Of a stretch of DNA of 45,245 nucleotides, positions 1,876-42,721 are shown in pieces. Source of the stretch: an uncultured Prevotellaceae bacterium (GTDB lineage: Bacteria; Bacteroidota; Bacteroidia; Bacteroidales; Bacteroidaceae); the NCBI GenBank assembly GCA_900320565.1, contig ONSR01000008.1, positions 1-45,245 on the forward strand, read 5' to 3'. The position numbers were made by a program, and so were the translations under genes. Below the pieces are notes generated by a model. It made no database searches and had not been told where the DNA came from. It saw only the letters and a list, made by a program, of their open reading frames with translations. How positions within the stretch are numbered: position 1 is the stretch's first letter; each line of letters starts with the position of its first letter.

Positions 1876-2007
1876 AAAGCGTGCCAAGTCTTTCAACTAA
1901 GCACGTTAAGTTGATCAATTAAGCACGTTAACTTTGCAAAGTTAACACGTTAAGTTTGCAAAGATGGCACGTTAAGTTTTGCATCTTAACGTGCCATCTT
2001 TGCAATT
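1876..2007. repeat. Six-unit 22-nt-period intergenic array (array A)
   Basis: Six contiguous units start at 1876, 1898, 1920, 1942, 1964 and 1986, each exactly 22 nt. The common core is GCACGTTAAG followed by TTTGCAAAG; the sixth unit is the reverse complement of the motif. Bases 1956-1976 and 1985-2005 form a perfect 21-bp inverted repeat with an 8-nt loop. The array lies between the MFS stop (2053) and the promoter of the gene starting at 1736, both on the minus strand, so it may end MFS transcription. There are no spacers between units, so it is not CRISPR. It belongs with the arrays at 9939, 22942 and 42634. Confidence 0.8.
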
Positions 2008-2052
2008 GAGGCTCGCCGTCTGAAAATCAGCGGCTTAGGAAACGAGCTTTCC

Positions 2053-3672
2053 TTACTTGATGTTCGGCTCTTCGAGGCCCAGTCCCTTCTTCTTATCGAC
2101 CATCTTCAGGACGAAACCAAGCAGGAGTGCTGCTACGCCGAGGCTGGCCAACATTACCAGCGGGGCTGTGTAGTTGAACTGAGTCGGGTCGGTAACTCCA
2201 GGATTCGTCTTGTCCAAAACCTTGCCGATGAGCAGTGGGAAGAGCCAAAGACCTATGTTCTGAATCCAGAAGATGAGTGCATAAGCAGAGCCTATAACCT
2301 TGGCATCCACCAGTTTAGGCACGCTTGGCCACAAACTTGCAGGCACCAGAGAGAACGAGGAACCCAGCACAAGAATGGTGATGTAGGCAATCGCGATGCC
2401 GCCGATGGCTGAGCCCTTGAACAAAGGCAACACGAATGCAAAGGTCAGATGGCAGAAGATGAGGAGCAACGAGCCCAGAATCAGCATCGTGGCTGCCTTG
2501 CCTTTGTGGTCAACATAACTGCCCAAGATGGGTGTGATGAGCACAGCCAAGAGTGGGAACACCGCGAAGATGCTCTCGGCAGACTGCCTCATGTAACCCA
2601 TATAACAATAGGTAACGAGGGCGAGGATGCTGACGCAAAGCAAGCCGTATTTCGCTCCGACCTTCTTCTGGAAGTTGCTTGCGAAGCCAGTAGCCGCAAC
2701 AAAGAGCATGATGAGGTACTGAACGATGGTCACATCGGGCTTTGCCCAGAAGGAGTTAGCATCGGGTGCCACGAGTGTGAGGTTGCATTGCAGCATGTTC
2801 ACGGCGTACTTCTGGAAGGGGAAGATTGCGCTGTAGTAGAGCACGCAAAGCAGGGCCACAAGCCAGAAGCCACTCGAAGTGAGGATTTGTCCCAAGTCGC
2901 TGATCTTGAAGGGGTCGTCCTTCTCCTCTGCCTCGCCAGTCTGCGCGTCGAGTTTCCTATCCATAAAGAAGTAAACAATACTCATGATGAGAGCAATGCA
3001 CATCAACACTACGCCAAAGGCAACCGAGCGAGAAACGCTGACTTGGCCGCCCAAACGAGCGAAGAAGGGCGAGAAGATCATGCAAGTTGCCACGCCAAGA
3101 CGGGCCAGAGCCATCTCCGAACCCATTGCCAAAGCCATCTCTCTGCCCTTGAACCACTTGACGATACCGCGACTGACGGTAATGCCGGCCATTTCCACAC
3201 CACAGCCAAATATCATGAAACCGCAGGCAGCAAACTTAGCGGAGGCTGGCATCCCCTCATAGAAGGGCGAGACGCCCAGTTCCTCGAACACGGGAATGTA
3301 GTTCAGATGGCTGTTGAACCATGCCTCCAAGCCTGTGCCCATGAAAGATTCATCCACGGCGTACCACTTGATGCAAGCGCCTATGAGCATCACAACGGCA
3401 GAAAGAACCATTGTGAAACGCACGCCCATCTTGTCGAGAATGATGCCCGCGAAGATGAGGAAGAAAGCAAAAACGTTCAGGAACACCTCGGAGCCTTGCA
3501 TCGTTCCGAAGGCCGTACTGTCCCATCCACGAGTCTCCTGCATCAAATCCTTAATGGGAGAAAGGATGTCCATGAAGATGTAACTGCAGAACATGGCGAG
3601 CGCCAAGAGCAGAAGAGCCGTCCAGCGCATGCCGGCGCTGTCGCGTAAAGTCTTTTGAATTGCTTGTGTCAT
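2053..3672 (-). CDS. MFS transporter
   Basis: This 539-residue protein has about twelve hydrophobic segments, starting with WTALLLLALAMFCSYIFMDI, and a central hydrophilic loop around residue 245 (DAQTGEAEEKDD), as in major facilitator superfamily carriers. Motif-A-like DKMGVRF follows TM2 and DRKLD precedes the central loop. The substrate cannot be read from the sequence; related Bacteroidetes proteins are annotated only as MFS or NarK-like transporters. It lies 43 bp downstream of the S9 peptidase gene on the same strand and may be cotranscribed with it. The gap carries a period-8 repeat. Confidence 0.85.
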   Translation of the reverse strand: MTQAIQKTLRDSAGMRWTALLLLALAMFCSYIFMDILSPIKDLMQETRGWDSTAFGTMQGSEVFLNVFAFFLIFAGIILDKMGVRFTMVLSAVVMLIGACIKWYAVDESFMGTGLEAWFNSHLNYIPVFEELGVSPFYEGMPASAKFAACGFMIFGCGVEMAGITVSRGIVKWFKGREMALAMGSEMALARLGVATCMIFSPFFARLGGQVSVSRSVAFGVVLMCIALIMSIVYFFMDRKLDAQTGEAEEKDDPFKISDLGQILTSSGFWLVALLCVLYYSAIFPFQKYAVNMLQCNLTLVAPDANSFWAKPDVTIVQYLIMLFVAATGFASNFQKKVGAKYGLLCVSILALVTYCYMGYMRQSAESIFAVFPLLAVLITPILGSYVDHKGKAATMLILGSLLLIFCHLTFAFVLPLFKGSAIGGIAIAYITILVLGSSFSLVPASLWPSVPKLVDAKVIGSAYALIFWIQNIGLWLFPLLIGKVLDKTNPGVTDPTQFNYTAPLVMLASLGVAALLLGFVLKMVDKKKGLGLEEPNIK

Positions 3673-3678
3673 AATATG

Positions 3679-3702
3679 ATGTTATTGTGTTATTTCGTTA
3701 TT
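3679..3702. repeat. Period-8 micro-repeat (three octads)
   Basis: Three consecutive octads share the ending GTTATT: ATGTTATT, GTGTTATT, TCGTTATT. They fill much of the 43-bp gap between the S9 peptidase stop and the MFS start. This belongs to the class of A+T-rich period-7/8 arrays seen elsewhere in the window. Confidence 0.6.
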
Positions 3703-3715
3703 TTCTCAGGTCGAA

Positions 3716-5938
3716 TTACTTCTTCAGCCACTTGTCGAGCCAAGCAAAATAAGTCCTCTGCCACAAGATACCGTTTTGTGGTTTGAGCACCCAATGGTTC
3801 TCGTCGGGGAAGATGAGCAGTTGCGCTTCGATGCCTCGCATGCGGGCGGCGTTGAAGGCACTCATGCCCTGGGTGGCGTTGATGCGGTAATCCTTCTCGC
3901 CATGTATGCAGAGGATGGGTGTGTCCCACTTGTCAACGAAGCGATGCGGCGAGTTCTCGTAGGTCTTTCGGGCGCGTGCCGTCTGGTCTTTGTTCCAGTA
4001 TGCATCGTCATACTCCCAGTTGGAGAACCAGTTCTCCTCTGTCTCGGTGTACATCGCCTCGAGGTTAAATGCACCATCATGCGCGATGAAGCACTTGAAG
4101 CGACCTTCGTGATGACCTGCCAGATAGTAAACCGAGAAGCCACCAAACGAGGCACCGACAGCTCCGAGGCGGTCCTTATCGACGTACGGAAGGTTCTCTA
4201 CGGCATCGTCTATCGCGGAGAGGTAGTCCTTCATGCACTGTCCTGTCCAGTCGCCGCTTATCTCCTCGAGCCATTCCTGCCCGAAGCCCGGGACGCCGCG
4301 ACGGTTCGGAGCAATCACGACATAACCCTGCGAAGCCATGATCATAAAGTTCCAACGGTAGCTCCAGAACTGGCTGACGGCACTTTGGGGGCCGCCTTCG
4401 CAGAAGAGCAGCGTGGGATATTTCTTCGCGGCATCAAAGTGAGGAGGCAAGATAACCCAGGTCAGCATCTCCTTTCCGTCGGTGGTCTTCACCCAGCGCT
4501 GTTCGATGCTGGGCTTCGCAAGCTGGTCGAGGATGTCCTTATTCACTTCGGTCAGCTGCTTTATCTGTGTGTCAGCAATCGTGTCGCCAGGATTAACGAC
4601 ATAGAGGTCAGCAGGTTCCGTGATGCTGTGACGCTCTGCAACAAGTTCCTTTTCGTTAAGCATCTGCACGGAACCAAAGTCGGCCCAGTCGTTGGAGAGT
4701 TGCTTCACCTCGCCCTTCAAGTTGGTCTTGTAGAGATTCTCTGTGGCGTGCCAAACCCCTATATAATATAATGTATAGGAGTCGGGCGCCCAGCAGAAGT
4801 CGTCCACGCTGGAGTCGAACGACTCGGTGACATAGGTCTTGGTGCCTTCCTTCAGGTCGTAGATGCAGAGGCGCTGGCGGTCGCTCTCGTAGCCGTCGCG
4901 CTCCATTGAGAGCCAAGCCACGTAGCGTCCATCGGGAGAGAACTTCGGATTCGTGTCGTAGCCGACGTTCTCATCCTTATGCTTAACGTTGATTTCCTGG
5001 TCTTTCAGTGTTTTGGTGGGATTCAATTGCTTGCCGTCGCCATGATAAGCCATGGCAGCACAGGGCAGAATGCCAAACTCCCGACCCTCTTTGCACAGGT
5101 TCTTTGTGTGCTCAATATTGTTAAGGTCGCGAGCTTCAACTTCATAAAGGAAGATGTCGCTATCGGTCGAGATACTATATTCCAAGCCGGTCTTACAGCG
5201 ACAAGTAAAGGCAATAGACTTTGAATCAGGGCTCCAAGCCAATTGCTCAATGCCGCCGAAGGGCTCCATGGGGCACTCGAAGGGCTCGCCATCGAGGATG
5301 TCGAACTCCTCACCCGTTTCGAAATCGATGACGAAGGGATGCTGGATGCTCTCCACATAGTGGTCCCAATGGCGATACATCAAGTCGTTCACGACGCGAC
5401 CGGTCGCTTTGGGCAGGTCTTCGGGGTTCTTCTGGATGATTTCATTGAAGTCGATGCTTTTCAAGAGGATAGCCTTCTTGCCATCAGGAGCGAAGAGGAA
5501 GCCCTCGACCTGGCCGTCGGTCTTGGTCATTTGCTTGCGGTTCTTGCCGTTCAAGCCCATCTTCCAGACCTCACCCTCGCGGAGGAAAGCGATGGTTTCG
5601 TTGTCCAGCCATTGCACATCGGTCTCGTTCTCGGCATCATTTGTCAGTTGCTTCTGTTCGCTGCCGTCTGCATTCATCATCCAAAGAACCTGGTGGCTCT
5701 TGTTCTCCGCTACGCTGTAATAGCCCATCTGGAAGGCAATGTGCTCTCCGTCGGGCGAGGCTTGATAACCACTGATGCGGCTCATTGCCCAAAGAGCCTC
5801 GGGCGTCATGAGGTCGCCATCAAGTTGAATGGTTTGTTTCTCTATGTTAACCTTGTCGTTTTCCTTCTGCGTACCGCAAGACATGAGTAATAATGAAAGA
5901 ATGAAAAAATGAAAAAATGAATGCTTACTGTGTCTCAT
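3716..5938 (-). CDS. S9-family prolyl oligopeptidase-like serine peptidase, lipoprotein
   Basis: This 740-residue protein starts with a lipoprotein signal peptide ending in the lipobox LLMSC (Cys about 21), so it should be anchored in the envelope. The N-terminal two thirds contain WD40/TolB-like propeller repeats with SPDG, APDG and SPDS turns (for example SPDGEHIAF, SPDSKSIAF, SPDGRYVAW). The C-terminal alpha/beta-hydrolase domain has the nucleophile motif GASFGG (Ser about 597), the acid in HGEKD (Asp about 683) and the base in DENHW (His about 715), a complete S9 triad. It probably cleaves short peptides in the periplasm; DPP-like versus acylaminoacyl-type specificity cannot be decided. 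It lies 31 bp downstream of yidC. The signal-peptide DNA is built on a period-8 repeat (5895-5922). Confidence 0.9.
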   Translation of the reverse strand: MRHSKHSFFHFFILSLLLMSCGTQKENDKVNIEKQTIQLDGDLMTPEALWAMSRISGYQASPDGEHIAFQMGYYSVAENKSHQVLWMMNADGSEQKQLTNDAENETDVQWLDNETIAFLREGEVWKMGLNGKNRKQMTKTDGQVEGFLFAPDGKKAILLKSIDFNEIIQKNPEDLPKATGRVVNDLMYRHWDHYVESIQHPFVIDFETGEEFDILDGEPFECPMEPFGGIEQLAWSPDSKSIAFTCRCKTGLEYSISTDSDIFLYEVEARDLNNIEHTKNLCKEGREFGILPCAAMAYHGDGKQLNPTKTLKDQEINVKHKDENVGYDTNPKFSPDGRYVAWLSMERDGYESDRQRLCIYDLKEGTKTYVTESFDSSVDDFCWAPDSYTLYYIGVWHATENLYKTNLKGEVKQLSNDWADFGSVQMLNEKELVAERHSITEPADLYVVNPGDTIADTQIKQLTEVNKDILDQLAKPSIEQRWVKTTDGKEMLTWVILPPHFDAAKKYPTLLFCEGGPQSAVSQFWSYRWNFMIMASQGYVVIAPNRRGVPGFGQEWLEEISGDWTGQCMKDYLSAIDDAVENLPYVDKDRLGAVGASFGGFSVYYLAGHHEGRFKCFIAHDGAFNLEAMYTETEENWFSNWEYDDAYWNKDQTARARKTYENSPHRFVDKWDTPILCIHGEKDYRINATQGMSAFNAARMRGIEAQLLIFPDENHWVLKPQNGILWQRTYFAWLDKWLKK
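5895..5922. repeat. Period-8 micro-repeat inside the S9 peptidase signal peptide
   Basis: Octads GAAAGAAT, GAAAAAAT, GAAAAAAT and a partial GAAT run in register at 5895-5922. Read on the minus strand they encode the HSFFHFFILS part of the signal peptide, so a simple intergenic-type repeat has become coding. Confidence 0.6.
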
Positions 5939-5973
5939 CTTTAATCTCTAATCCTTAATCTTTAATCAATTAT
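5939..5973. repeat. Period-7 micro-repeat between yidC and the S9 peptidase
   Basis: Five heptads in register: CTTTAAT, CTCTAAT, CCTTAAT, CTTTAAT, CAATTAT. The array fills the whole gap between the S9 peptidase start codon and the yidC stop codon, and the last heptad contains that stop. Confidence 0.75.
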
Positions 5974-7826
5974 CTTCGTTTCGCTTGTTCCTGCTGCATC
6001 TTCTGCAAAGCCTCGAGGCGTGCTTGCAAGCCCGACACCTTCTTGGGATCGTTCTTGTGCTGCTCGCGATAAGCCTCCAGACCGGCAAGGAGTTTTGCAT
6101 CATCAGTCTTCATGCGCAGGTACCACATCGTGAGGATATTGAGCAAGCCGGATATGAAGTAGAAGTAACTCAGACCGCTCGAGTAGTTGTTAAACCAGAA
6201 GAAGAACATCAGAGGCATGAGGTACATCATCCATTGCATCATCTTCATCTGCTGAGCTTGCTCGCCTGTAAACTGGTTTTGCTGCTGGCGCATCGAGATC
6301 CAAGTATTGATAAGGTTCGTCGCACTAAAGAGGATACAGAAGAGACTCAAGTGGTTGCCGATAAGCGGAAGGCTGGTTCCCCAACGGATTGGGTCGTCGT
6401 AAGCACTGAGGTCGCTTGCCCAAAGGAAGCTCTCGCCACGCAAATCGATGGCATTGGGAATGAAGTTGAACATCGCAATCCAGATAGGCATCTGTATGAG
6501 CATCGGCAAGCATCCGCCCATAGGACTGACGCCGTACTGACTATAGACCTGCATCATGGCCTGTTGCTTCTGCATAGCCTGGTCGGGATTGGGATATTGC
6601 TTGCTGAGTTCGTCAAGTTTTGGCTTGAGGACACGCATCTTGGCACTGCTCAAATAGCTCTTCTTTTGGGTTGGCCAAACAGCCACCTTCACGATGACTG
6701 TCAGCAAGAAGAGGACGATACCCATCGGCAGGCCCATGGTCTTGAGCCAGTCAAAGACATAAAGAATCGACCAGCGATTGATGAAGCGGAATATCCACCA
6801 ACCGAGATAAACGAGTTCGTCGAGGTCGGCATCCGAGCCATAAGCCGTCATCTTGCTGTGTGCCTTGAGGATATGGAAGTCGTTCGGGCCAAGGTACATC
6901 TGCAGGTGAGTGGGCTCCTTACCTGTCACATCGAACGGAATCTGCGCCTTTGCCTGATATTCCTTCAGGTAGCCTGCATAATCGTCGTTAGGCATTTGGG
7001 AGGAAAGAGCTGCCTTCGTCATGGGCTTATCCGCGATGAGGACGGCGCTGAAGAACTGGTTCTTGAAGGCAATCCACTCGAGAGATTCCTCGGGCTCCTT
7101 GCTGTCGTTGCTCGTCTCACTGAGCTTCTTCACGCCTTTGCCCTGCCTTTTGTAGGTGAGAGAACTGTAGCGGTTCTCAAAGTCCTTACCCTTCTCCTGC
7201 TGCAGAACTGCTGCCTTCCAGTCGAGGAGCAACGTCGTCTCGCCAGGCATGGCTAATCCCTCCAGCCCCTCCGACGTAATGTTCATGTCGAGCATATAGG
7301 CGTTGGGACGTAGGGTATAGCTGACCTGAAGCTGTTTCCCCTCCTGTTCTGCCACAAAAGTAACGGTGGAGTCGGTCTGCTCGGCAATGTTGAAGACGAG
7401 ATCTAACAGGCTGAGGTTCTGCTGCTTAAGCGGCAAAGTCAACTTCATCGAAGCGTCTTCTTTGCCGAGAATCACGACATCGCCATCCCTGCGACGGCTC
7501 TTGTAGCCGATTATCTCAGCATCCTCGACCACAGCACCCTTGCTGTTGAGGCCCACCTTCACCTTATTGTTCTGAAGGACAATGCGCTGTCCCTCGCCAT
7601 TACTCTGCGAGAAGAAGAGAGCGCTGCTGTCCGGCTGGGCTGGAGTAGCTGCAATCGTTTCGGCTTCAACCTTCTCGGCTTCTGCTTGTTTCTGCTGCTC
7701 CACAGCAGCGATACTATCCCTTTGTGCCATAGCTTCCAACTCTTCCTTACTGGGCTGACTGTACCAGCTGAAGCCAATGACTACGAGGGCAATGAGAATA
7801 AATCCTGTAACTGTATTTTTATCCAT
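5970..7826 (-). CDS. yidC: Membrane protein insertase YidC
   Basis: This 618-residue protein has an N-terminal transmembrane anchor (residues 5-20), a large periplasmic beta-domain (about 60-350) and the conserved C-terminal insertase core with five membrane segments. The core contains GLPMGIVLFLLTVIVK, the SPMGGCLPMLIQMPIWIAMF motif and SGLSYFYFISGLLNI, ending in a basic tail (QEQAKRR). It inserts inner-membrane proteins alone or with SecYEG. Length and architecture match Bacteroidetes YidC. Upstream is a TACTTTTG -7 box at 7857, divergent from the DUF3078 gene promoter. The S9 peptidase and MFS genes follow closely and may be cotranscribed. Confidence 0.97.
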   Translation of the reverse strand: MDKNTVTGFILIALVVIGFSWYSQPSKEELEAMAQRDSIAAVEQQKQAEAEKVEAETIAATPAQPDSSALFFSQSNGEGQRIVLQNNKVKVGLNSKGAVVEDAEIIGYKSRRRDGDVVILGKEDASMKLTLPLKQQNLSLLDLVFNIAEQTDSTVTFVAEQEGKQLQVSYTLRPNAYMLDMNITSEGLEGLAMPGETTLLLDWKAAVLQQEKGKDFENRYSSLTYKRQGKGVKKLSETSNDSKEPEESLEWIAFKNQFFSAVLIADKPMTKAALSSQMPNDDYAGYLKEYQAKAQIPFDVTGKEPTHLQMYLGPNDFHILKAHSKMTAYGSDADLDELVYLGWWIFRFINRWSILYVFDWLKTMGLPMGIVLFLLTVIVKVAVWPTQKKSYLSSAKMRVLKPKLDELSKQYPNPDQAMQKQQAMMQVYSQYGVSPMGGCLPMLIQMPIWIAMFNFIPNAIDLRGESFLWASDLSAYDDPIRWGTSLPLIGNHLSLFCILFSATNLINTWISMRQQQNQFTGEQAQQMKMMQWMMYLMPLMFFFWFNNYSSGLSYFYFISGLLNILTMWYLRMKTDDAKLLAGLEAYREQHKNDPKKVSGLQARLEALQKMQQEQAKRR

Positions 7827-7856
7827 ATAGGTTATGTATTTTTCTATTTAGGCGTA

Positions 7857-7864
7857 CAAAAGTA
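7857..7864 (-). promoter_or_regulatory. Predicted -7 box of yidC
   Basis: TACTTTTG on the minus strand fits TAnnTTTG and lies about 30 nt upstream of the yidC ATG (7826). No clear -33 TTTG is visible. Confidence 0.5.
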
Positions 7865-7868
7865 CAAA

Positions 7869-7903
7869 AAACTTTAAACTTTAGCCCTTAAACTCTAAAC
7901 TTT
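7869..7903. repeat. Period-7 micro-repeat between divergent promoters
   Basis: Five heptads in register: AAACTTT, AAACTTT, AGCCCTT, AAACTCT, AAACTTT. The array lies exactly between the -7 box of yidC (minus) and that of the DUF3078 gene (plus), so it occupies the -33 region of both promoters. Confidence 0.75.
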
Positions 7904-7907
7904 TTCG

Positions 7908-7915
7908 TATCTTTG
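7908..7915 (+). promoter_or_regulatory. Predicted -7 box of the DUF3078 gene
   Basis: TATCTTTG, a perfect TAnnTTTG, 16 nt upstream of the ATG at 7932. The -33 position falls in the heptad array and has no clear TTTG. Confidence 0.6.
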
Positions 7916-7931
7916 CACAAAATTAGAACAA

Positions 7932-9248
7932 ATGAAGCGGCTTACAATACTATTCATTACCTGTTTTATGGTCTTGGGAGCCAGTAGCGCCACCAAGACG
8001 AATGCAAAGGAAGAAGAAAAAGCAGACTCTTCTCTGCTTCTGAAGAACTACCTGAAAGCTCTCGAAACACTGGTGAAGGAACGAGACTCGCTGAATACAT
8101 CAACGGCGACCTCTGCCCCGAATGCCTACTACTACCAGATTCTTTCACAGCCTGCGCTTTATAGTTCATCGATACATCAAATGTTGGGACAAACCGACTT
8201 GAGCAGTTCTGACCAGCAGCTGCAGCGTCTCTTTGCCTCCAGAAAGATGTTGTCTTCGCTTTATACCGGAGCTCCTCAGCTCGTCAGGCAGACGGAAAGT
8301 GACATCACAGGACAGGCTGCCATCCGAGGCGACATAAACGACAGACTGACGGCTGCAGACAAACTGGCCGACAAAGTAGCCGCTGCCTCACTGGTTCCTG
8401 AGTTGGACGGACCGGTGGAGGTCATTACCCGTCGCCCTAACTTCTGGAAGTTCTCGGGTACCACCTCGCTGCAATTTGCACAGAACTATATCTCGGACAA
8501 CTGGTATAAAGGCGGCGAGACCAACTGGATAGGCAATTTCGACCTCACATTGCATGCCAACTACAACGACCAACGCAAGATAACCTGGGAGAACACGCTG
8601 GATGCGCAACTGGGTTTCCAAACGACGGAGACCGACGAAAAGCGCACTTTCCGACCGAGCCACAACCTTCTTCGCTACACCGGCAATGCCGGCTACAAGG
8701 CTTGGAAGAACTGGTATTACTCTCTTTTGGTCATTCTGCAGACCCAGATTGCACCCAATTATCAGAGAAACACCGATAAGATTACATCGAAGATACTGTC
8801 TCCGTTAGAAATCACGATTGCCCCCAATATGAAGTACGAAATAGCATGGGGCAAGAAGAAGCAGTTCACGGGACAACTCAACATTGCCCCCCTTGCCATG
8901 AAGATTGTGTATGTCAACGATGACGAACTTGTCACAAACTTCGGCATAGAAGCAGGGAAGCACCAGAAGACCACGTTCGGTCCCAACATCACGCTCAACA
9001 CGAAGTGGCAGATATGCAAGCAAGTCTCTTGGACAAACCGCATGTACTGGTTCAGCAACTTTGACTACAACATCTGGGAATGGGAAAACAACATCAACTT
9101 TACCATCACCAAACTCATCACGGCGAACCTTCATCTCTATCCGCGCTTCGATAATAGCAACAAGAATTATCGTTCCGGAAAGAATCACGACGGCACCTAC
9201 TTGATGTTCAAGGAACTGCTAAGTCTGGGCCTGACCTACAATTTCTGA
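7932..9248 (+). CDS. DUF3078 outer-membrane beta-barrel protein
   Basis: This 438-residue secreted protein has a signal peptide (about residues 1-25). The C-terminal two thirds consist of alternating beta strands rich in Trp, Tyr and Asn, with [32 protein letters not shown] and a final aromatic strand LSLGLTYNF typical of outer-membrane barrels. I recognise the pattern of the Bacteroidetes DUF3078 family (WKxxGxxxLxxxQxxxxNWxxGGxN). The family has no firm function. engB follows 20 bp downstream on the same strand, so the two may share the promoter at 7908. Confidence 0.8.
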
Positions 9249-9268
9249 GGCAAATACCCGTTTCGACC

Positions 9269-9862
9269 ATGCTCATCAAATCAGCCGAATACCTTATCAG
9301 CAGCGCCCGTGTGGACCAATGTCCGCAGGGAGATTTGCCGGAGTTCGCTTTTATAGGGCGAAGCAATGTAGGCAAGTCCAGCCTCATCAACATGCTGACA
9401 GGCAGAGCGGGTCTGGCCAAAACGTCTGCCACACCTGGCAAGACCATCCTCATCAACCACTTCCTAATAAATAAAGAGTGGCATCTTGTCGACCTCCCAG
9501 GTTATGGTTACGCCAAGCGGGGACAGCAGCAAAGGGACGAACTGCAACGGATGATAACGGGCTACATCCTGCGTCGCGAACAAATGATGAACCTCTTTCT
9601 TCTTATCGACGCGCGCCACGAACCACAACGTATCGATATGGAGTTCATCGAATGGCTCGGCGAGAACGGCATCCCATTCAGCATCGTCTTCACGAAAGCC
9701 GATAAGCTCTCGAAGGGGAAGCTTGCCGCTAACATCAAGCATTACCTCGGCGAACTCTCGAAACAATGGGAGGAACTGCCGCCACACTTCATTACAAGCA
9801 GCGAGACAAAACAGGGCAGAGAGGAACTTCTTGACTACATCGACGAGATTCTCGGTAATTAG
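9269..9862 (+). CDS. engB: Ribosome biogenesis GTP-binding protein EngB (YihA/YsxC)
   Basis: This 197-residue protein has the usual length of the family. G1 is GRSNVGKSS (about 30-38), G2 lies near TPGKT, G3 is DLPGYGYA (75-82), G4 is TKAD (142-145) and G5 is SSE near residue 175. The family is an essential GTPase acting in late 50S subunit assembly. It starts 20 bp after the DUF3078 gene. A strong 18-bp inverted repeat at 9979-10018, part of a 22-nt-period array, follows and could end the transcript. Confidence 0.97.
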
Positions 9863-9938
9863 TTTTGTCACAAATATCGCCATTTTACTTTCTTTTTGCT
9901 ATTTTTGCACACTCCTTAAAAGGGGTGAAAACAGCACG

Positions 9939-10020
9939 AATCACGTCGAATTTGCAAACGCAACACGCCATGTTTGTCAACGCCCTACGTTAAGTTGACC
10001 AACTTAACGTAGGGCGTTTG
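9939..10020. repeat. Four-unit 22-nt-period intergenic array (array B)
   Basis: Units start at 9939, 9961, 9983 and 10005. The first two are of the CACG...TTTGCAAA / CACGCC...TTTGTCAA type. The third reads AACGCCCTA, CGTTAAGT, TGACCAAC from 9979, and the fourth is its reverse complement. The outer frame AACGCCCTA...TGACCAAC is the same as in the array at 15281, where the inner word differs. The array lies between convergent genes engB and lptD. Confidence 0.75.
9979..10018. terminator. 18-bp perfect hairpin between convergent engB and lptD
   Basis: AACGCCCTACGTTAAGTT (9979-9996) is followed by the 4-nt loop GACC and its exact reverse complement (10001-10018). The plus strand continues GATTTTTAA, a short T-run. 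It is placed to act as the terminator of engB and may work in both directions. Confidence 0.6.
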
Positions 10021-10305
10021 ATTTTTAACTGCGTTGCTTTTACAGAAGAATCACGCAAAAAAGTGTGCAAAAACACGATGAAATGGCCGATTTTGTAAGG
10101 CGCAGTTGTCAAATCAGCACTTTCCGCTTTTTGAGCCACCTTGTAACATCTTGATTTTCAGCATGGATTCGATTTGAGCGCATTTCTTTGAAAAAATGAC
10201 CAAAACCATGTCCGAGACCATTTTAAGCGATTCTGGAGCATTCACCCAAAATTGAAGTGTAAGCAAAAGGCCCTATTTCGTGACAATCTGTCAACAGACA
10301 AATCG
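10021..10305. other. Non-coding space before the 3' end of lptD
   Basis: About 285 bp between the hairpin and the lptD stop. I see no convincing gene, RNA or promoter here, only scattered A/T-rich runs. Confidence 0.5.
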
Positions 10306-13083
10306 TCAATACCACTCGACGTTGCTGCTGTAGGAACTCTGCTTCTTCCATCGCAAAGCATCGGTCAGGGTGCCGGCCTTGCAGGCGAAAAGGAAGTTGA
10401 AACTGGTGTACGGATAGACAACCATGCTGCAAGACATGGAGAAGCAATGCAGGTCGCGGGCCAAGGAAAGCGTCGTCATACTCAACCTCTTGTAGTTGAA
10501 GTCGTAGCCGGACGAGAAGTTGATGTTCCAGCCCTTGGCAATGCCGACATTTCCTGAGAAGTTGAGCGTATGGGTAAACTTGTAGGGATAGCGCATCCGC
10601 TTGGGGTTGATTGGCGCAGCAGTATTCTCACGCATAGAGACACCATAGCTGACGGTCAGGCTCCAAGGCATCTGGAACTTAAGGTAACCATCCTCGTCTA
10701 TTTCGGTGGATGCATTTTCCGTTTCCGCTTCCCTACCCTTCTTTCGGTCAGGATCGACGTTCTGCATCATAGGATCCACGTCTTCGTCGTCGTATCCATC
10801 TTCGTCGTCATCATCAGCAGAACTGCTGGCAAAACGTTTCGAAACCTTGTCCTTCATGCCAAGCAACTTCCTGAACGTCTGGTTATTGAAGGTGTAATGG
10901 ATGTTCTGACTCATGCCCTGGAAACGTCCGAAGCGTCCCTTGCCCCATTCGGTATGGTTGCCTACATAAACATTGCCGTTCTTGTCGAACTCGTAGGCGT
11001 AAGTGGCAAAGACAGCATTCATGGAGAAGGTATAAGTCTTCGTCAGTTTAAGACGCAGGTGCATGCTGAGGTCGCTCCACGGCTTCGTCTTAGCAGCCAT
11101 ATTATAACTCATGGACATACCCAGCTCGTCAATAAGGCTGATCTTCTTCTCGCCCGTCGAGTCACGGCTGGACCGCACCTTCATCTCAAGATTATTGGAG
11201 ATATCCAGCTGGACGCTTCCGCTCATGCCATTAGGAGCCGTGCCATAAGCGCCACCCGAGAAAGGAGAGTAAGTCACCGTGGAGACATTGCCGTCCTTAT
11301 CCGTACGGACATACGTGTCGTAGAAGCCCCACATCGGCTTGCTGAAATCAGGAGCATAGTTAAAGCTAACGGAGGGGGAAAGCATGTGTCGGATGGCCTT
11401 AATCTTCTTTCCGCCAAACCAAGGCATGGGCGTATAGTAGCCATAGAGCTTCGTGTTGGCCGTTAAGCTCATCGTGAAATTATAGACATTATAGAAGCCA
11501 TTTACAGTATCTCGCTTCACTGTCCTCTTGTCTTCGTCCCACGACTGCATGACCTTCTTCGAGTACATACGGTCGATGAACGTGAAGTTCGGCGTAATGT
11601 TGATATACTTGAATATGGGGAAAGTGGCATTAATGGGTATCTGGTGTCTCATTCCATTACGCCAATCCTTAATCAGACTACTCTTGAAAAGCAAATTCTC
11701 CTTGGTATTGATGCTATTGGTGAGTGTTCCACTGTAGCTCACGCCAATCTTCTCGTACCAACGCTCCTTGCCGGCCATCTTCTTTCGCTTGAAAGGATAG
11801 AAGCGGTTGAGCTGAATCGTAAGGTTCGGCAGGGTAACGGCAAGGCTGCTGTCACGCACCTGCTGCGACAGGTTGAACGTGCTGCTAAGCGTCAGGCCTA
11901 TATTGGGAAACGACTTGCTGTAGCTGATACTACTCGTCCTGACACTCTGCGTATAGCTCTCCGGATTGTACATGCTTACGAGATTGTTGCGCTCGTAGCT
12001 GCTTGTCGAGAAGTTAACACTTGCCGTAAAACTCTGCGTCGGGTTAGCCTTCGGGTCTTGTCGATGCGTCCAGGTTACCTTGAAACTCTTCGATACAGAA
12101 TAGTCCGGCATATTCTTCTCGCCGTTTTGTGTGTACTGATAGCTTAGATAGAGGTTTCCACTATAGCGATATCTCTTCTTATAAGTAGATTGTCCCGAGA
12201 GAGACCAAGAGCCCTTCGTGTATATGTCTGCCAGGATTTTGGCATCCACATAATCATTGAATGCAAAATAGTAGCCGCCCTCACGCAAATAGAAACCTCG
12301 CGTCGTCTCATCACCATAGCTGGGCATGATGAAGCCACTGCTGTACTTATCCTTGAAAGGGAAGAAGCCATAAGGAATTGCCAGAGGCAAAGGCACGTCG
12401 CATACAACGAGATAAGTCGGTCCGAACACCACATCCTTGCCAGGACGCATCTTGGCTCTCGTCATGTTAAGGTAGAAGTGAGGATGCTCGGCATCGCAGG
12501 TCGAGTAGAATGCCTTCTTGACATACATCGTGCCGCTGCTATCACGCTTGCCGTCCATACTCTTCATGTAGCCTTCTCCCTGTTGGGTATAAACGTTGGA
12601 GATGAATGCCTTGCGCGTCTTGAAGTTATAGCTGATGCTATCTGGCTCGTATTCATCCTTACCTTGACGGAAGAGAGGCTTGCCCGTAACGTTGCCCAAC
12701 GAGTCTGTTCGGCTGGTAGCATGAACAAGGCTGCTGTCAATAGCGATATTGATAATATCCGCCTCGAGTTCAAGATTCTGGTATTGTACCTTGCTGCCGC
12801 CATACAGATGAGCATGGGAGTGAGCGTAATCGAAGGTAATTGAGTCTTCGGCAGAATAATTGACGGGCATATCGAGGGCATTCTTGCTCTTGCGCGTCGT
12901 ATCGACAGGTACAGTGTCCTGCGCCGCGGTATCTGGCAAAATGGTATACGAACGCAAGGGTAGGCTGTCTTGCAACAGCGAGTCAACGCCATTCCTCAGG
13001 AATGCAACTCTTCCTGCAGGACGGGCTGCCAGTGCTGCCAGAACATAGCATGCCGTCAGTATCGATAATAATCTTGCCTTCAA
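10306..13083 (-). CDS. lptD: LPS-assembly protein LptD (OstA-like)
   Basis: This 925-residue outer-membrane protein has a signal peptide (MKARLLSILTACYVLAALAA). An OstA/LptA-like beta-jellyroll region follows (about 70-230: ITFDYAHSHAHLYGGSKVQY, LEADIINIAIDS). A long barrel continues from PYGFFPFKDKYSSGFIMPSYG to a terminal aromatic residue (SSNVEWY). Bacteroidetes LptD proteins have this size and the FFP motif. It places lipopolysaccharide in the outer leaflet. A very acidic insert (SSADDDDEDGYDDEDVDP, about residues 760-780) interrupts the barrel and is probably a surface or periplasmic loop. A TACCTTTG box lies 25 nt upstream of the ATG. Confidence 0.88.
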   Translation of the reverse strand: MKARLLSILTACYVLAALAARPAGRVAFLRNGVDSLLQDSLPLRSYTILPDTAAQDTVPVDTTRKSKNALDMPVNYSAEDSITFDYAHSHAHLYGGSKVQYQNLELEADIINIAIDSSLVHATSRTDSLGNVTGKPLFRQGKDEYEPDSISYNFKTRKAFISNVYTQQGEGYMKSMDGKRDSSGTMYVKKAFYSTCDAEHPHFYLNMTRAKMRPGKDVVFGPTYLVVCDVPLPLAIPYGFFPFKDKYSSGFIMPSYGDETTRGFYLREGGYYFAFNDYVDAKILADIYTKGSWSLSGQSTYKKRYRYSGNLYLSYQYTQNGEKNMPDYSVSKSFKVTWTHRQDPKANPTQSFTASVNFSTSSYERNNLVSMYNPESYTQSVRTSSISYSKSFPNIGLTLSSTFNLSQQVRDSSLAVTLPNLTIQLNRFYPFKRKKMAGKERWYEKIGVSYSGTLTNSINTKENLLFKSSLIKDWRNGMRHQIPINATFPIFKYINITPNFTFIDRMYSKKVMQSWDEDKRTVKRDTVNGFYNVYNFTMSLTANTKLYGYYTPMPWFGGKKIKAIRHMLSPSVSFNYAPDFSKPMWGFYDTYVRTDKDGNVSTVTYSPFSGGAYGTAPNGMSGSVQLDISNNLEMKVRSSRDSTGEKKISLIDELGMSMSYNMAAKTKPWSDLSMHLRLKLTKTYTFSMNAVFATYAYEFDKNGNVYVGNHTEWGKGRFGRFQGMSQNIHYTFNNQTFRKLLGMKDKVSKRFASSSADDDDEDGYDDEDVDPMMQNVDPDRKKGREAETENASTEIDEDGYLKFQMPWSLTVSYGVSMRENTAAPINPKRMRYPYKFTHTLNFSGNVGIAKGWNINFSSGYDFNYKRLSMTTLSLARDLHCFSMSCSMVVYPYTSFNFLFACKAGTLTDALRWKKQSSYSSNVEWY

Positions 13084-13107
13084 TTGCTATACAATTATTC
13101 CAATTTG

Positions 13108-13115
13108 CAAAGGTA
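13108..13115 (-). promoter_or_regulatory. Predicted -7 box of lptD
   Basis: TACCTTTG on the minus strand, a perfect TAnnTTTG, ends 25 nt before the ATG at 13083. No -33 TTTG is evident at the usual spacing. Confidence 0.55.
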
Positions 13116-13165
13116 AGACTATTTTCCGACACTTTGTGTCTTTTTCCTTTATTATTATGATTTTT

Positions 13166-13699
13166 TCACTCAAAGCGGGCCATCCAGGCCTTGAACACGG
13201 CAATACCGTCGCTCCCGAACTTCTCCAAACTGCGTATGGCCTGCTCGGGAGTCTTCTCTATATCGAGACGTGTCTTTGAGTAGTACTTGTCGGCATAACA
13301 GATGATTTGCTCCTCGATGCTTTCCGGCGTAAAGTCCTGATGCGGCAGGGGCAGGTTCTGACGTTCTATCTCTGCGGCCGTGAGCCCAGTTCCCGTGTGC
13401 CGCTCTGCCACTCGGGCATGTAGGGGCAGTCCTTCGGCACGAAGTATCTCTGCTCCAAGAATGCCGTGACGAATGTAGGGCTCTGTCCCATAACAGAAGA
13501 TGGAAGGTGCATCGACGCGACAGATGCCGATGTCATGGAGCATTGCGGCTTCCCAAAGAAGCGTCTCATCTGCCTTCAGCTCTGGATGAGCCTTGGCGAT
13601 TTTCAGGGCTCGTCGAGCCACATCTGTGCTGTGACGAAGCAGGATTTGCTCCAATTGCGTATTGCCTTCGCAATACCTATGTATTAACTCTTCGACCAT
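13166..13699 (-). CDS. HD-domain phosphohydrolase
   Basis: This 177-residue protein fits the HD superfamily. Metal ligands appear in order: His23 (RHSTDVARRAL), the HD pair His55-Asp56 (AAMLHDIGI), His78 (RHGILGAEIL), His101 (ERHTGTG) and Asp137 (CYADKYYS). This HDIG-like set is typical of small stand-alone HD phosphohydrolases acting on nucleotides or phosphoesters; the substrate is unknown. It lies upstream of lptD on the same strand, but the 82-bp gap contains lptD's own -7 box. It is divergent from the DUF1846 gene. Confidence 0.85.
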   Translation of the reverse strand: MVEELIHRYCEGNTQLEQILLRHSTDVARRALKIAKAHPELKADETLLWEAAMLHDIGICRVDAPSIFCYGTEPYIRHGILGAEILRAEGLPLHARVAERHTGTGLTAAEIERQNLPLPHQDFTPESIEEQIICYADKYYSKTRLDIEKTPEQAIRSLEKFGSDGIAVFKAWMARFE

Positions 13700-13731
13700 T
13701 TCTCATCATTTCTTCTGCAAAATTACAAAAT

Positions 13732-13777: not shown

Positions 13778-13807
13778 CAACTTGAAAGCAGTAAAGGAGG
13801 TAATAAG

Positions 13808-31144: not shown

Positions 31145-31145
31145 G

Positions 31146-31233
31146 CCAGTACTCACGTGTGAAAACTCCAGTACTCTCGTGTGAGTACTGGAGTTTTCTC
31201 GTGTAAGTACTGGAAACGTGACGTGAGGCGTTG
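31146..31233. repeat. Four-unit 22-nt-period intergenic array (array E)
   Basis: Units start at 31146, 31168, 31190 and 31212. The first two start CCAGTACTC, followed by (A/T)CGTGTGA; the third and fourth are related with inverted parts (CTCGTGTAAGTACTGG). It lies between a plus-strand gene ending at 31144 and a minus-strand gene ending at 31248. The word is different from the other arrays but the 22-nt period is the same. Confidence 0.85.
31161..31198. terminator. 16-bp perfect hairpin within array E
   Basis: GAAAACTCCAGTACTC (31161-31176), loop TCGTGT, and its exact reverse complement (31183-31198). The arms end in AAAA and TTTT, so it resembles an intrinsic terminator in both directions, fitting convergent genes. 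Confidence 0.65.
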
Positions 31234-31247
31234 GACGAGACGTTGTC

Positions 31248-33389
31248 TCAACTGATACGATTCAACACATACCTGGTACGACTCTTATCGCGCTTGTTGA
31301 TGATTGTCAGCGCATCGTACGTCACGGACAGGACAGCGTACACCTTAGTTTCACCATCCTCGAATAGTAGAAGGAGGTCTCCGCTTTGGGGATTATTAAG
31401 AAGATAGTCAAAATGTTCCTCGTTGTTGAGAGTGCCGGTACCATCGGCATCGAAGGCCAGCGTCACCTCTTCCCCGTCCAGCATACCTTTCCATGTACCG
31501 ACAAGTTCTGCAGCGGCGTTGCCGTCAATCTGTTTCCCTACGGAAAGCGAGGAAGACGATGACGTTCCCTTGCTCTTGAAAATATTGTTCTTCAGGGGTA
31601 CAGGCAAATATGTTCCTACTATGTAGAGCGTACTGTCTATCACGGCAGAACCCATGAACGGACCGCTGGAAACAAATGTCGCAGCACCATTGCTCTGGCC
31701 GAAGGAATAGGGTTGCAACAACACATCTTTGCGAATCCCGACTGGGGCGGCACTGATGGTAAAGCCTGCATAATGGAAGACAGGGCGCATAGTATATCCC
31801 TCCATGTCATCTGCTTTGACCGTTTCCGGCATCGTTATCTCAGAGTCAAATGTCTGCACTTCCTGATTCTCCGTTTCTGCCTCGATAGTTCCGATGAAGA
31901 CACTGTCCACCACTTCGCCTTGTGGATCGACAATCTCAAAGCCAGTCTCTATGTCGGTCGGAGGAGTTTCTTCTACTGCGGCAGCCACACTGACCTTCAC
32001 TTCCTTGGTTTGCTGTGTGGCAGCAGTTGCAGAGCGCTGCGTGTATTCGGGGAAGAGTCGCATTGTATGCCCTCCAAAAGTTAACGACGTGTCGAATATC
32101 TTATGCTCCTCCACCTCGTTCCATGCAAGAAGGCGTCTGTTCGTCAAATATCCCTCCAGTGCCGCTTTGCCATAGAAAGATAGTTCACCATTAGCATACG
32201 CCTGAGAGGTATAATTGCGCATATTGCGTAACATTCCCATGCTCAAATGTCCAGTCACCTCGGTGCCAGCCTTCACTTTGGCACGTGCTCCAACCAGACT
32301 GCCAATAGTCGCGAAGTCAACTTCCATCATAGGACCAAAGAAAACACTGCCATCCAGTGTCAAATCTACATGGGCTTTGTCTTCGCTGGATTCATCCCCA
32401 GACACATTGAATATCTCAAAATGATCCTCTTCTCCTTGGTGTGTCCAACTCATTTTGCGAGTGTACGTACGCTCAATGCCCATGTCCAGATTCATCTCTG
32501 CTGTCACATCGGCAAAAGCACCAATTGCTGCTTCCAGATTCAGCAATCCCCAGATAGTCCCTATTTTAGTCTTGGGGCCAAGCTTATTGACATGACAAGT
32601 CGTATTTTCTTTTGCCTGTAGACTTAGGCCTACACCATAGCCATAACTCATGGTAAGGTCGGCGTGTCTGTATTCCGTCGAGAAAATAACATTGCCTGAC
32701 ACCTTCACCTCTCCTTTCACATTTATGCTGCCAATATCATCCAACGCCAATCCGCTATTGACACTTAAGGTGACGGGAGGAATATCTATCTGAGGTGCCC
32801 GTCTCCCCGAGGACTGAGCATTCATCTCAGTTTGTACACGGCCAGCAAGGAACAGGCGGCTGAAGATTTCATCCAATGCCACAGCTTCTATATCGACTCT
32901 TATCTCGCCCGCAACAGTCATCACGTTTGTCACCTTTGCACACAGGCCATAGGGGAAGACGCTATCCTCTTCGCCATCCAGACCATAGAAGAGTTTCATT
33001 CCCTTCCTCGGCAATATCGACGAAGGAGTGTCGGTGCGGTAGAATATCGACTGCCCGTCGAAGCGGATAATCCAAGGCAAGTCTGCGACTATCGTCAGTT
33101 GCTTGACGTCCTCTTGGAACTCCATCACATTCCTGTCGCCAATGGCAACACTGTCTATCTCAGCCAAAGGGATTGCGATTGTCGTGTCCTTCGACCAGAA
33201 CACCTGCGACACAGGCTCACCATGCAACACTCCTTCAGCATCAATACATGAACTCGTCACACTGTCCAAACTATTAGTATAAAACAGATTCACTACGCCA
33301 GTATTGCGGAACACCAGTACCTGCTCATCCTCAGCAAGCATGCGGCCTGCCATGAGGAAAGATAATATCAAAAGTATGTATTGTTTCAT
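31248..33389 (-). CDS. Large secreted protein with C-terminal lipocalin-like domain
   Basis: This 713-residue protein has a signal peptide (MKQYILLILSFLMAGRMLA). The middle part (about 190-470) is a long stretch of regular beta strands (VTLSVNSGLALDDIGSINVKG, VKVSGNVIFSTEY, LTLDGSVFFGPMMEVDF). Residues 615-713 (LVGTWKGMLDGEEVTLAFDADGTGTLNN...) look like a lipocalin-like domain similar in layout to the C-domains of the three upstream paralogues. I do not recognise a named family. Its start overlaps the stop of the third paralogue by 4 bp (ATGA), so it is translationally coupled and probably works with those proteins in the envelope. Confidence 0.8.
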   Translation of the reverse strand: MKQYILLILSFLMAGRMLAEDEQVLVFRNTGVVNLFYTNSLDSVTSSCIDAEGVLHGEPVSQVFWSKDTTIAIPLAEIDSVAIGDRNVMEFQEDVKQLTIVADLPWIIRFDGQSIFYRTDTPSSILPRKGMKLFYGLDGEEDSVFPYGLCAKVTNVMTVAGEIRVDIEAVALDEIFSRLFLAGRVQTEMNAQSSGRRAPQIDIPPVTLSVNSGLALDDIGSINVKGEVKVSGNVIFSTEYRHADLTMSYGYGVGLSLQAKENTTCHVNKLGPKTKIGTIWGLLNLEAAIGAFADVTAEMNLDMGIERTYTRKMSWTHQGEEDHFEIFNVSGDESSEDKAHVDLTLDGSVFFGPMMEVDFATIGSLVGARAKVKAGTEVTGHLSMGMLRNMRNYTSQAYANGELSFYGKAALEGYLTNRRLLAWNEVEEHKIFDTSLTFGGHTMRLFPEYTQRSATAATQQTKEVKVSVAAAVEETPPTDIETGFEIVDPQGEVVDSVFIGTIEAETENQEVQTFDSEITMPETVKADDMEGYTMRPVFHYAGFTISAAPVGIRKDVLLQPYSFGQSNGAATFVSSGPFMGSAVIDSTLYIVGTYLPVPLKNNIFKSKGTSSSSSLSVGKQIDGNAAAELVGTWKGMLDGEEVTLAFDADGTGTLNNEEHFDYLLNNPQSGDLLLLFEDGETKVYAVLSVTYDALTIINKRDKSRTRYVLNRIS

Positions 33390-35391: not shown

Positions 35392-39099
<3,708 letters not shown>

Positions 39100-41611: not shown

Positions 41612-42607
41612 ATGCCACAGCCTATATATAAAGAAATACGATGGGGCTTCATCGGTTGCGGTGAAGTAACCGAGAAGAAGAGCGGACCTGCATTCAATCT
41701 TGTGGCAGGCTCGCGCATCTGGGCTGTAATGAGTCGTAGCAAGGAAAAGGCTTCCTCTTACGCAGAACGGCACAACATCCCTCGCTGGTACACCGATGCT
41801 CTGCAGCTTATCAACGATCCGGAGGTCAATGCGATTTACATCGCCACCCCGCCCTCATCGCACGCCACTTATGCCATTATGGCGATGAAGGCAGGCAAGC
41901 CTGTTTATGTAGAGAAACCCCTCGCAAGCAGTTACCTCGACTGTCAACGCATCAATCGTGTCAGCGAACAAACGCACGTGCCATGCTTCGTGGCTTATTA
42001 CAGGCGCTATCTGCCCTACTTCCAAAAGGTGAAGGAACTTGTAGAGAAAGGGGCCATTGGCAAGGTGACGTCCGTACAGATACGCTTTGCTTGTCCGCCA
42101 CGCGACCTCGACTATAACAGTACAGCACTTCCCTGGCGTGTGCAGCGCGACATAGCTGGCGGAGGTTACTTCTATGACCTTGCACCTCACCAGATTGACC
42201 TGCTGCAAGAAATATTCGGACCGATTGTCAGGGCGAAGGGCTTCAGCAGTAATCGTGGCGGACTTTATGAGACGGAAGACACCGTGAGCGCAGCCTTCCA
42301 GTTTGCCGACGGCTTGCCCGGCAGCGGCTCGTGGTGCTTTGTCAGCCACGAGAGTGCCCGTACCGACCGCATCGAACTGATTGGCGACCGAGGACAACTG
42401 CATTTCTCCGTCTTCACCTACGAGCCCATCGTCATGCGTAATGAGCAAGGGCGTCAAGAGTTCCACGTCGAGAACCCCGAACACGTTCAGCTCCCACTCA
42501 TTCAGAGCGTAGTGGAACATCTGCAGCAAAGTAGCATCTGCACTGCCGACAGCATCAGCGCCACCAGCGTCAACTGGGTGATGGACCGCATTCTGGGAAA
42601 GATATAA
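41612..42607 (+). CDS. Gfo/Idh/MocA family oxidoreductase
   Basis: This 331-residue protein has a Rossmann N-domain (RWGFIGCGEVTEKKSG, IYIATPPSSHA, VYVEKPLASSY with the EKP motif) and a C-terminal alpha/beta domain with GGGYFYDLAPHQIDLLQ, where the histidine is in the usual catalytic position. Such enzymes oxidise or reduce sugars or inositols with NAD(P). It starts directly after the porin stop and is translationally coupled. The sugar substrate cannot be read from the sequence. Array F begins 27 bp after its stop. Confidence 0.9.
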   Translation: MPQPIYKEIRWGFIGCGEVTEKKSGPAFNLVAGSRIWAVMSRSKEKASSYAERHNIPRWYTDALQLINDPEVNAIYIATPPSSHATYAIMAMKAGKPVYVEKPLASSYLDCQRINRVSEQTHVPCFVAYYRRYLPYFQKVKELVEKGAIGKVTSVQIRFACPPRDLDYNSTALPWRVQRDIAGGGYFYDLAPHQIDLLQEIFGPIVRAKGFSSNRGGLYETEDTVSAAFQFADGLPGSGSWCFVSHESARTDRIELIGDRGQLHFSVFTYEPIVMRNEQGRQEFHVENPEHVQLPLIQSVVEHLQQSSICTADSISATSVNWVMDRILGKI

Positions 42608-42633
42608 TGACTCTCCGTACAGGACATCTTCAA

Positions 42634-42721
42634 ACACGGCGTGCCGCGTTGGCAAACTTAACGTGCCGCGTTGACAAAGATGGCGTGCCGCATTGGCAAA
42701 GATGGCGTGCCGCATTTTATT
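42634..42721. repeat. Four-unit 22-nt-period intergenic array (array F)
   Basis: Units start at 42634, 42656, 42678 and 42700. The core is GGCGTGCCGC(G/A)TT followed by G(G/A)CAA and AGAT or ACTT. The GCAAAGATGGC junction is also present in array A. It lies between the oxidoreductase stop and the ECF sigma gene, both on the plus strand; the last unit ends in TTTTATTTG, about 65 nt before the sigma ATG. Confidence 0.85.

Follow-up and report, generated by a model that had tools for sequence, protein, structure and literature searches.

The window analysed here, a stretch of 45,245 nucleotides from an uncultured Prevotellaceae bacterium (ONSR01000008.1, contig C44 of a draft genome of 2.63 Mb in 122 contigs), raises the question of why six of its intergenic spaces, which do not all hold the same words, carry contiguous arrays that advance by the same step of 22 nt. 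An earlier note on this DNA had described these arrays and proposed a common process or machinery reading two helical turns. The period is kept across loci, species and genera, so that this interpretation is partly supported overall and is still the leading idea. The answer that we favour, tentatively, is that the arrays are double-stranded platforms for a dimeric, cooperatively binding and fast-evolving protein, which would organise or insulate the chromosome.

Arrays of 22-nt units along the chromosome

A sliding self-comparison of 44 bases over lags 5 to 60, cut at a minimum of at least 27/44 identities, returned at lag 22 exactly the six spaces announced by the earlier note: 1864-2001, 9936-10003, 15257-15374, 22926-23032, 31122-31231 and 42621-42744, named arrays A to F in this order. 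Lags 44 and 7 gave four regions each, lag 14 two and lag 8 one, the rest none; besides, Tandem Repeats Finder (TRF), used independently, called period 22 at arrays A, C and F. All six arrays lie outside the genes called with a hexamer model, in agreement with the claim that none overlaps a coding sequence. The number of four to six units per array is generous for array B, the weakest of the six (27/44), which has about three units and then a long hairpin. Rfam models gave no match in the window at the gathering score.

To sample the window's own genome, 20 stretches were added to the window (426.6 kb in all); they come from contigs matching the main word of the arrays, so that the density may be biased upward. 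At a cut of at least 30/44, this sample holds 49 regions at lag 22, 31 at lag 44, 37 at lag 7, 6 at lag 14, and 0-3 at all others; the arrays are thus present elsewhere in the genome (49 regions in 427 kb). In its intergenic DNA, at a cut of at least 27/44, 63 regions stand at lag 22, whereas the 14 other lags counted average 0.7 and reach at most 5 (lag 16). A lag-22 region is found in 47 of 140 gaps, while 100 shuffles preserving dinucleotides gave a mean of 0.02 and a maximum of 1, so that shuffled intergenic DNA is practically devoid of the signal that the earlier note proposed to measure against it. When the intergenic DNA of the own and same-genus stretches is taken together, lag 22 reaches 107 regions (a count which includes orthologous stretches of both G011 and G023, two close relatives), lag 21 has 14, and lags 20 and 23 one each. 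Sampled genomes, stretches and contigs are designated here by G, L and C numbers.

Array-bearing gaps represent 49 of the 144 own-genome gaps of at least 76 bp, at 27/44, and these 49 extrapolate to roughly 300 arrays per genome. The six loci of the earlier note are therefore part of a much larger set; to its account must be added that the words are dyads, that terminator-like hairpins close arrays B and C, and that the spacing, which it was in no position to see, is even. An exact 18-mer of the main word was found in 21 stretches of Bacteroidales/Bacteroidaceae assemblies, e.g. RUG11599 and, of ruminant origin by title, RGIG4467.

The array-bearing gaps of the own genome are evenly spaced: their 39 intervals have a mean of 7.7 kb and a coefficient of variation (CV) of 0.34. 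Draws matched for orientation and length class gave a CV of 0.70, none of 1,500 being as low as 0.34, and only one interval is shorter than 3 kb where 8.8 were expected. This evenness holds in each half of the data, without the window, and under a null fixing the number per contig; with a stricter cut the CV is 0.46 against 0.71 (p = 0.001). Control gaps are irregular, with a CV of 0.95 for those carrying heptamer arrays (17 intervals) and 0.91 for array-free gaps of 200 bp or more (18 intervals); for all gaps of at least 200 bp it is 0.57.

Changing words and a constant step

The units are dyads, with the own-genome consensus CAAACTTAACACGTTAAGTTTG, i.e. CAA-N6-C(AC|GT)G-N6-TTG. Arrays A, B, D and F, for which a shared consensus had been claimed, do have the frame CAA...C(AC|GT)G...TTG in common, but not literally CACGTTAA; as had been stated, arrays C and E use different words in the same 22-nt register. 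The symmetry was examined on 158 units of 43 of the 52 own arrays, the phase being set only by the central CACG/CGTG (the nine arrays without this phase were left out). Arm positions 2-8 on each side are complementary in 43-84% of the units. The figure is 33-68% when one side is shuffled, and 23-26% for 2,887 CACG/CGTG sites that belong to no array; in the same test positions 9-10 show no complementarity. The arms of one unit pair no better with each other (2.50 of 5 positions) than with those of the neighbouring unit (2.39; 51 neighbour pairs), which suggests that the arms are taken from a vocabulary proper to each array, in both orientations, and not from one fixed hairpin. The word can even switch within one array while the register is kept, as in L011 4467-4675 (AAATCC...GGATTT to AGGGAC...GTCCCT). 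Unique spacers of about 20 nt or more, as expected in CRISPR arrays, were not found: the 22-nt units are contiguous, and no more than about 10 of their bases vary (no search was made for cas genes).

Other genomes carry the same step with their own palindromes. In same-genus stretches (378 kb, 20 genomes) there are 12 lag-22 regions, several with new palindromes, and with further stretches 14 of 21 same-genus genomes have at least one; at a cut of at least 29/44, regions also appear in three of seven sampled genomes from other genera of the family. These three counts were made with no screen for coding sequence, and some matches (e.g. G010, G056) look coding. Other families of the order gave no lag-22 region in 203 kb from 12 genomes, which are small samples.

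The words are specific to the species. GAACCATGGTTC occurs 13 times in G016, distributed over four loci with neighbours 22 or 44 apart, and 0-1 times in 30 other genomes; GTTTCTGCNGCAGAAAC, with at most one mismatch, occurs 176 times in G021 and never in 30 others; GCACCGTGGTGC has 250 sites in G024 and 0-10 in 30 others. In another genus CAAACAATATTGTTTG, again with at most one mismatch, is found 135 times in G054, once in one congener and not in 13, and 51 of the 52 steps within its loci are multiples of 22 (for 100 of the 135 sites). A third genus, represented by G051, has 13 exact sites of GACCTAGGTC, whose four close pairs are all 22 or 44 apart. The information profiles of G016, G021 and G024, with units chosen by their core, consist of a conserved palindrome and a near-random remainder. 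A test free of any core was therefore carried out, on arrays detected solely by their lag, asking whether units 1 and 2 agree with each other at the same positions as units 3 and 4: for 25 lag-22 arrays of other species they do so above chance (z 5.9).

By means of the flanking genes, four of the six window gaps could be located in relatives; those of arrays A and E were not placed. Gap C holds arrays with three words in three species, all at lag 22: CCCTATAGGGG here, CTTAACGTGTTAAG in G007 and GAGGCACGCTCTTATTGCCAAC in G019. This corresponds to the alignment of sister loci that the earlier note had called for, and it shows other words on the same step. Gap B carries lag-22 arrays in G007, G011 and G023 and none in G012, where the gap is 7 bp long. 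Gap D has an array by scan in G007 and G023, G011 being below threshold, and at gap F both G007 and G012 lack a lag-22 array. When G011 is compared with its close relative G023, 18 of 21 arrays can be aligned.

In one of the compared loci (L084:14461-14614 in comparison with L087) the array of G011 is longer than that of G023 by exactly 44 bases, that is by the gain or loss of two whole units. A second word family, built on AATGGTTAACCATT and also at lag 22, occurs in G011 and G023 (L146:5764, L147:6825, L152:16394, L158:15349, L159:8400 and 13711).

Could such arrays be ordinary minisatellites, made by neutral slippage or template switching, with a correction of quasi-palindromes keeping the symmetry? 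Units are alike within an array, length changes by whole units, no pattern of held and drifting positions is seen in the own genome, and template switching perfects imperfect palindromes. However, slippage gives no reason why independent loci, whose words are unrelated, should have a period of 22 rather than 20, 23 or 24, and it leaves unexplained both the position-consistent conservation in other species and the even spacing. As unrelated words have in common the prominence of lag 22 and of its multiples, we strongly disfavour neutral slippage and regard it as very improbable, although the test of positions in the own genome is negative.

In G054, the loci defined by two spellings (100 of the 135 sites) number 48 and are at least 16.5 kb apart, with no interval under 15 kb where 8.4 were expected. 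With all spellings at up to one mismatch, counted over the first 1.82 Mb, where the list is complete, 15 kb is not reached by 5 of 43 intervals, compared with 13.1 expected (P 0.0002). The loci of G054 thus avoid each other, yet they are not strictly periodic. Among the listed exact-palindrome loci of eight contigs of G024, 2 of 77 intervals are under 2 kb, against 14.7 for an exponential distribution, which is a cruder null. On contig C1 of G054 the two counted spellings are almost absent from the zones 0.54-0.91 and 1.87-2.84 Mb; array-poor zones of this genome lie near sign changes of the GC skew (19 sampled stretches), and are possibly origin and terminus.

Possible explanations: protein platform, gene ends or mobile repeats

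In the reading that we favour, each array would be a platform of double-stranded DNA and each unit one dyad site for a putative homodimeric DNA-binding protein. With a step of 22 bp, successive dimers would be two turns apart and all on one face of the helix, side by side, where they may bind cooperatively. Contiguous 22-bp units placing proteins on one helix face are found in plasmid iterons (e.g. R6K) and in tandem transposase sites (e.g. the ends of Mu); those are however single loci with one word, in a replicon or a transposon, whereas the arrays described here are chromosome-wide, palindromic and change their words. The sequence preference of the protein might shift between species while its footprint and oligomer geometry stay fixed, so that the palindrome would be rewritten and the 22-bp step kept. 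As for their role, each array might act on several kilobases around it, as a nucleus or a boundary of chromosome domains, and so serve nucleoid organisation or topological insulation; such a regional job is probable because the arrays are evenly spaced along the chromosome. Altogether, the fixed step, the free dyadic wording, the centres indifferent to orientation, the conservation of positions in other species and the even spacing fit arrays of dimers better than RNA hairpins or neutral minisatellites.

Several observations nevertheless weigh against this reading. No binding protein was found, and the presence of several word families side by side in one genome is not explained by one protein. 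The dyads are weak in the consensus of individual arrays (7/52 at p <= 0.01, 14/52 at p <= 0.05), and the core-free test fails in the own genome (43 arrays, z -1.1, P 0.87), where held and drifting positions are not detectable; in the information profiles the conservation of the core is partly by construction, the units having been selected by core. The spacing is also weaker in relatives. It departs from chance in G011 with the looser cut (p = 0.01 for the CV, 0.001 for short intervals) but not with the stricter one (CV p = 0.27), is suggestive at best in G023 (CV p = 0.15-0.19), and is not significant in G007, whose 6 intervals are too few; in G054 the overall CV is high (1.28), owing to large empty stretches, one of them of 366 kb. 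The remaining adverse points concern gene ends, folding and larger duplications, and each of them speaks for another explanation.

One of the four arrays of G016 stands directly upstream of a gene for an HU-related DNA-binding protein (HU-HIG/TIGR01201; L142:4613-4712 and 4864-5334). This protein is a possible candidate reader; as a general idea of a regulator adjacent to the arrays, one case out of four was too little to build on.

The first of these other explanations is that the arrays are bidirectional terminators, or structures of 3' ends, whose units fold as RNA hairpins; 22 nt is indeed the size of a compact hairpin with a stem of about 9 bp and a loop of 4 nt. The 50 sample arrays comprise 27 in tandem gaps, 10 in convergent gaps, 4 in divergent gaps and 9 at the edge of a stretch; none has its midpoint in a called gene (0/50), though a few extend into the end of one, by 36 bases at most; the calls are less sure for the nine at the edges. 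On joined contigs, arrays occupy 9/17 convergent, 28/94 tandem and 6/33 divergent gaps, so that convergent gaps are favoured over divergent ones (p = 0.02), and the 3' ends of genes are favoured too: 21 of 27 tandem arrays are closer to the upstream stop codon (p = 0.006). Single strands fold strongly in both senses (mean z -2.9 for 41 arrays; 45 of 82 strands below -2), and five of the six window arrays fold better than their shuffles (z -3.2 to -8.6). A scan for terminator-like sites, covering window 1-20000, has its two best-paired sites at the right edges of arrays B and C, and each is followed by a T-run; a pure protein-site model needs neither the folding nor these hairpins. Runs of at least four T directed outward are present at 26/82 edges, against 15/82 inward (p = 0.07), and in G024 four or more T end 5 of the 9 listed sites or clusters.

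On the other hand, mismatches in the stems show no strand preference: those that would be G-U on the transcribed strand and those that would be G-U on the other number 11 and 11, and in a second count 48 and 73, which is the wrong way for an RNA. The equality of pairing within and across units reported above also speaks against hairpin units, as do compensatory double changes between G011 and G023, which are not above shifted controls (3 against 0-2). Terminator-like sites overall are at the level of shuffles in window 1-20000 (22 v 17.7, sd 4.0), array F does not fold better than its shuffles (z +0.39), and arrays occur in divergent gaps, namely array D, the 6/33 already mentioned and two of the four in G016. 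Finally, neither the even spacing of 7.7 kb nor the invariant step is required by termination. We therefore consider it unlikely, though far from negligible, that the arrays are terminators in the first place; termination is probably a secondary use of some of them. The stricter idea of one fixed RNA hairpin per unit is unsupported by the tests of pairing, wobble and compensatory change. A terminal boundary motif CTGGC/CTGCC (15 outward and 7 inward among 154 edges) was weak and was dropped.

The second explanation calls for a comparison with known repeats. The nearest described element that we found is BrickBuilt, which qualifies the statement of the earlier note that it knew of no described element: a related 23-nt repeat is in print. 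According to excerpts of PMC4596501, BrickBuilt are intergenic 23-nt tandem repeats of Porphyromonas gingivalis, with dyads, stem-loops, a leader, a tail and IS5-type ends, one 23-nt word being present in 19 places and reported in P. gingivalis and P. gulae. As far as these excerpts go, BrickBuilt and the arrays described here share their intergenic position, the head-to-tail and spacer-free arrangement, a near-identical period, dyad symmetry, long predicted stem-loops and the same bacterial order. The predicted terminators and/or polyadenylation sites near 10/19 BrickBuilt, and their expansion or contraction by whole units, also resemble what we see, and the arrays of G054 lie likewise within a longer element with conserved flanking blocks. 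By contrast, the arrays have a period of 22, words differing with species and locus, hundreds of copies, an even spacing, and long shared flanks at few own copies; the same excerpts contain neither a change of word between species nor even spacing. At lag 23 there is no intergenic own-genome region at a cut of at least 27/44, and a single one when same-genus stretches are added. These excerpts also mention 22-nt tandem direct repeats in P. gingivalis W83, without locations or analysis; by that mention alone, period and bacterial order are as here. The excerpts of PMC5771137 mention BrickBuilt without 22-bp repeats.

A likeness also exists, in excerpts of the literature, with REP/BIME and REPIN elements, which are intergenic and palindromic, number in the hundreds per genome, form species-specific families and partly stand in regular tandem arrays; roles in termination and protein binding have been proposed for them. 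However, according to excerpts of PMC3116915, the spacing of REPs in Pseudomonas fluorescens SBW25 is indistinguishable from random beyond 200 bp, whereas the arrays here avoid each other over kilobases. The RAYT transposase domain PF01797 was not found in four array genomes, the window's own (G000) and G007, G011 and G023, which are 72-89% complete, other transposases not being searched for; it is above cut-off in 5 of 31 genus genomes, and the E. coli control was positive. An identity with REP/RAYT was rejected, since neither the window's genome nor these three relatives, all rich in arrays, yielded such a transposase. The literature search found the BrickBuilt and REP papers and recognised none on 22-nt palindrome arrays or on even spacing, most subscription journals being outside it.

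The arrays might thus be selfish repeats of the BrickBuilt sort, resembling miniature inverted-repeat transposable elements (MITE), spread by a transposase or a replicative process, their spacing resulting from insertion (target) immunity and their unit number from slippage. Some array copies do lie within larger duplicated elements, of about 550 bp in G054 and in pairs of 354 bp and 422 bp in the window's genome; the difference of 44 bases between two close species and the presence or absence of arrays at orthologous gaps (no array for F in G007 and G012, nor for B in G012) go in the same direction. Transposases with 22-bp sites and target immunity exist, those of Mu and Tn7 for instance. Yet a comparison of 53 pieces flanking own arrays gives 31 matching pairs (E <= 0.01), and long matches are found only at two locus pairs among the 25 of these 31 pairs that were listed. 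No clear terminal inverted repeats are seen by eye in the aligned copies (one own duplicate pair and the G054 set), and PF01797 is lacking as said. Moreover, three words at one orthologous locus would require repeated independent insertion there. For these reasons we judge a mobile origin doubtful, and still a serious rival.

The element of about 550 bp in G054 encloses the array, mostly of four units, between conserved outer blocks at most of the 17 loci compared (L168-L170, L182, L184-L194, L196-L198). The two own-genome pairs are non-coding: L015 15053-15406 and L021 2998-3351 (354 bp, 91.5% identity), and L018 1221-1642 and 12433-12854 (422 bp, 84.6% identity). In the window, array B with part of its right flank (9928-10268) matches the 422-bp family more weakly.

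Going further than a protein platform, one may imagine, with more reserve, a marking system extending over the chromosomes of this bacterial family, in which hundreds of evenly spaced arrays of 22-bp-phased palindromes are rewritten in each species and a cooperative DNA-binding protein, itself evolving fast, reads them. Words that change rapidly, with few long stretches free of arrays, would fit a code of domain boundaries, or a mark of self against foreign DNA following the logic of Chi in a dyadic form. If a protein reads the arrays, sister species would offer a natural experiment in which one geometry of DNA and protein is fixed and the recognition sequence is repeatedly replaced. The even spacing would make chromosome organisation directly testable in these bacteria. 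Even if the arrays are terminators or mobile repeats, the invariant 22-nt step, the free wording and the avoidance at the kilobase scale are explained by neither of these as now described.

The six arrays of the window

Array A (1869-1993) has about 5-6 units of 22 nt in the frame CAA-N6-CACG-N6-TTG and lies in a tandem gap, between genes 3-1736 and 2053-3672, both on the minus strand. At its right edge (1956-2005) two oppositely oriented units form an inverted repeat with a 21-bp stem, seen by folding and by self-match with the minus strand. Array B (9936-10026), with its three or so units and terminal hairpin, occupies a convergent gap, flanked by the genes for a YihA/YsxC-type GTPase and an LptD-like protein; the terminator-like hairpin at its right edge (9979-10018, plus strand) has an 18-bp stem and a 4-nt loop, and is followed by TGATTTTT. 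Array C (15262-15369) consists of 4-5 units on its word CCCTATAGGGG, in the convergent gap between genes 13757-15271 (plus) and 15416-16210 (minus), its nearest called gene end being 15271. Its last two units make a terminator-like hairpin (15329-15360, plus strand), then comes GATTTTTA.

Array D (22945-23026), of about four units, stands in a divergent gap between a flippase-like gene (minus) and a gene for V-type ATP synthase subunit D (plus). Array E (31132-31226) has about four units on AGTACTGGAGTTTTCTCGTG, in the convergent gap between genes 30710-31144 (plus) and 31248-33389 (minus), with the nearest called gene end at 31144; it makes one long hairpin when folded, and its word is matched on five further contigs of the same genome. 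Array F (42624-42729), of about 4-5 units of GGCGTGCCGCATTGGCAAAGAT, reads GGCGTGCCGC and lies upstream of a gene for an ECF-type sigma factor, in a tandem gap, the nearest called gene end being 42607.

Apart from these arrays, the window has tandem runs of heptamers (AATTATG, ATCTTTA and similar) at 5937-5967, 7869-7903, 13732-13763, 25928-25959 and 35560-35603. It also has an intergenic pair of inverted repeats made of G/C runs, CCCTCCCTTAAAGGGAGGG ... CTCCCCCTTTAAGGGGGAG (28745-28850), with many matches in G012 and G019.

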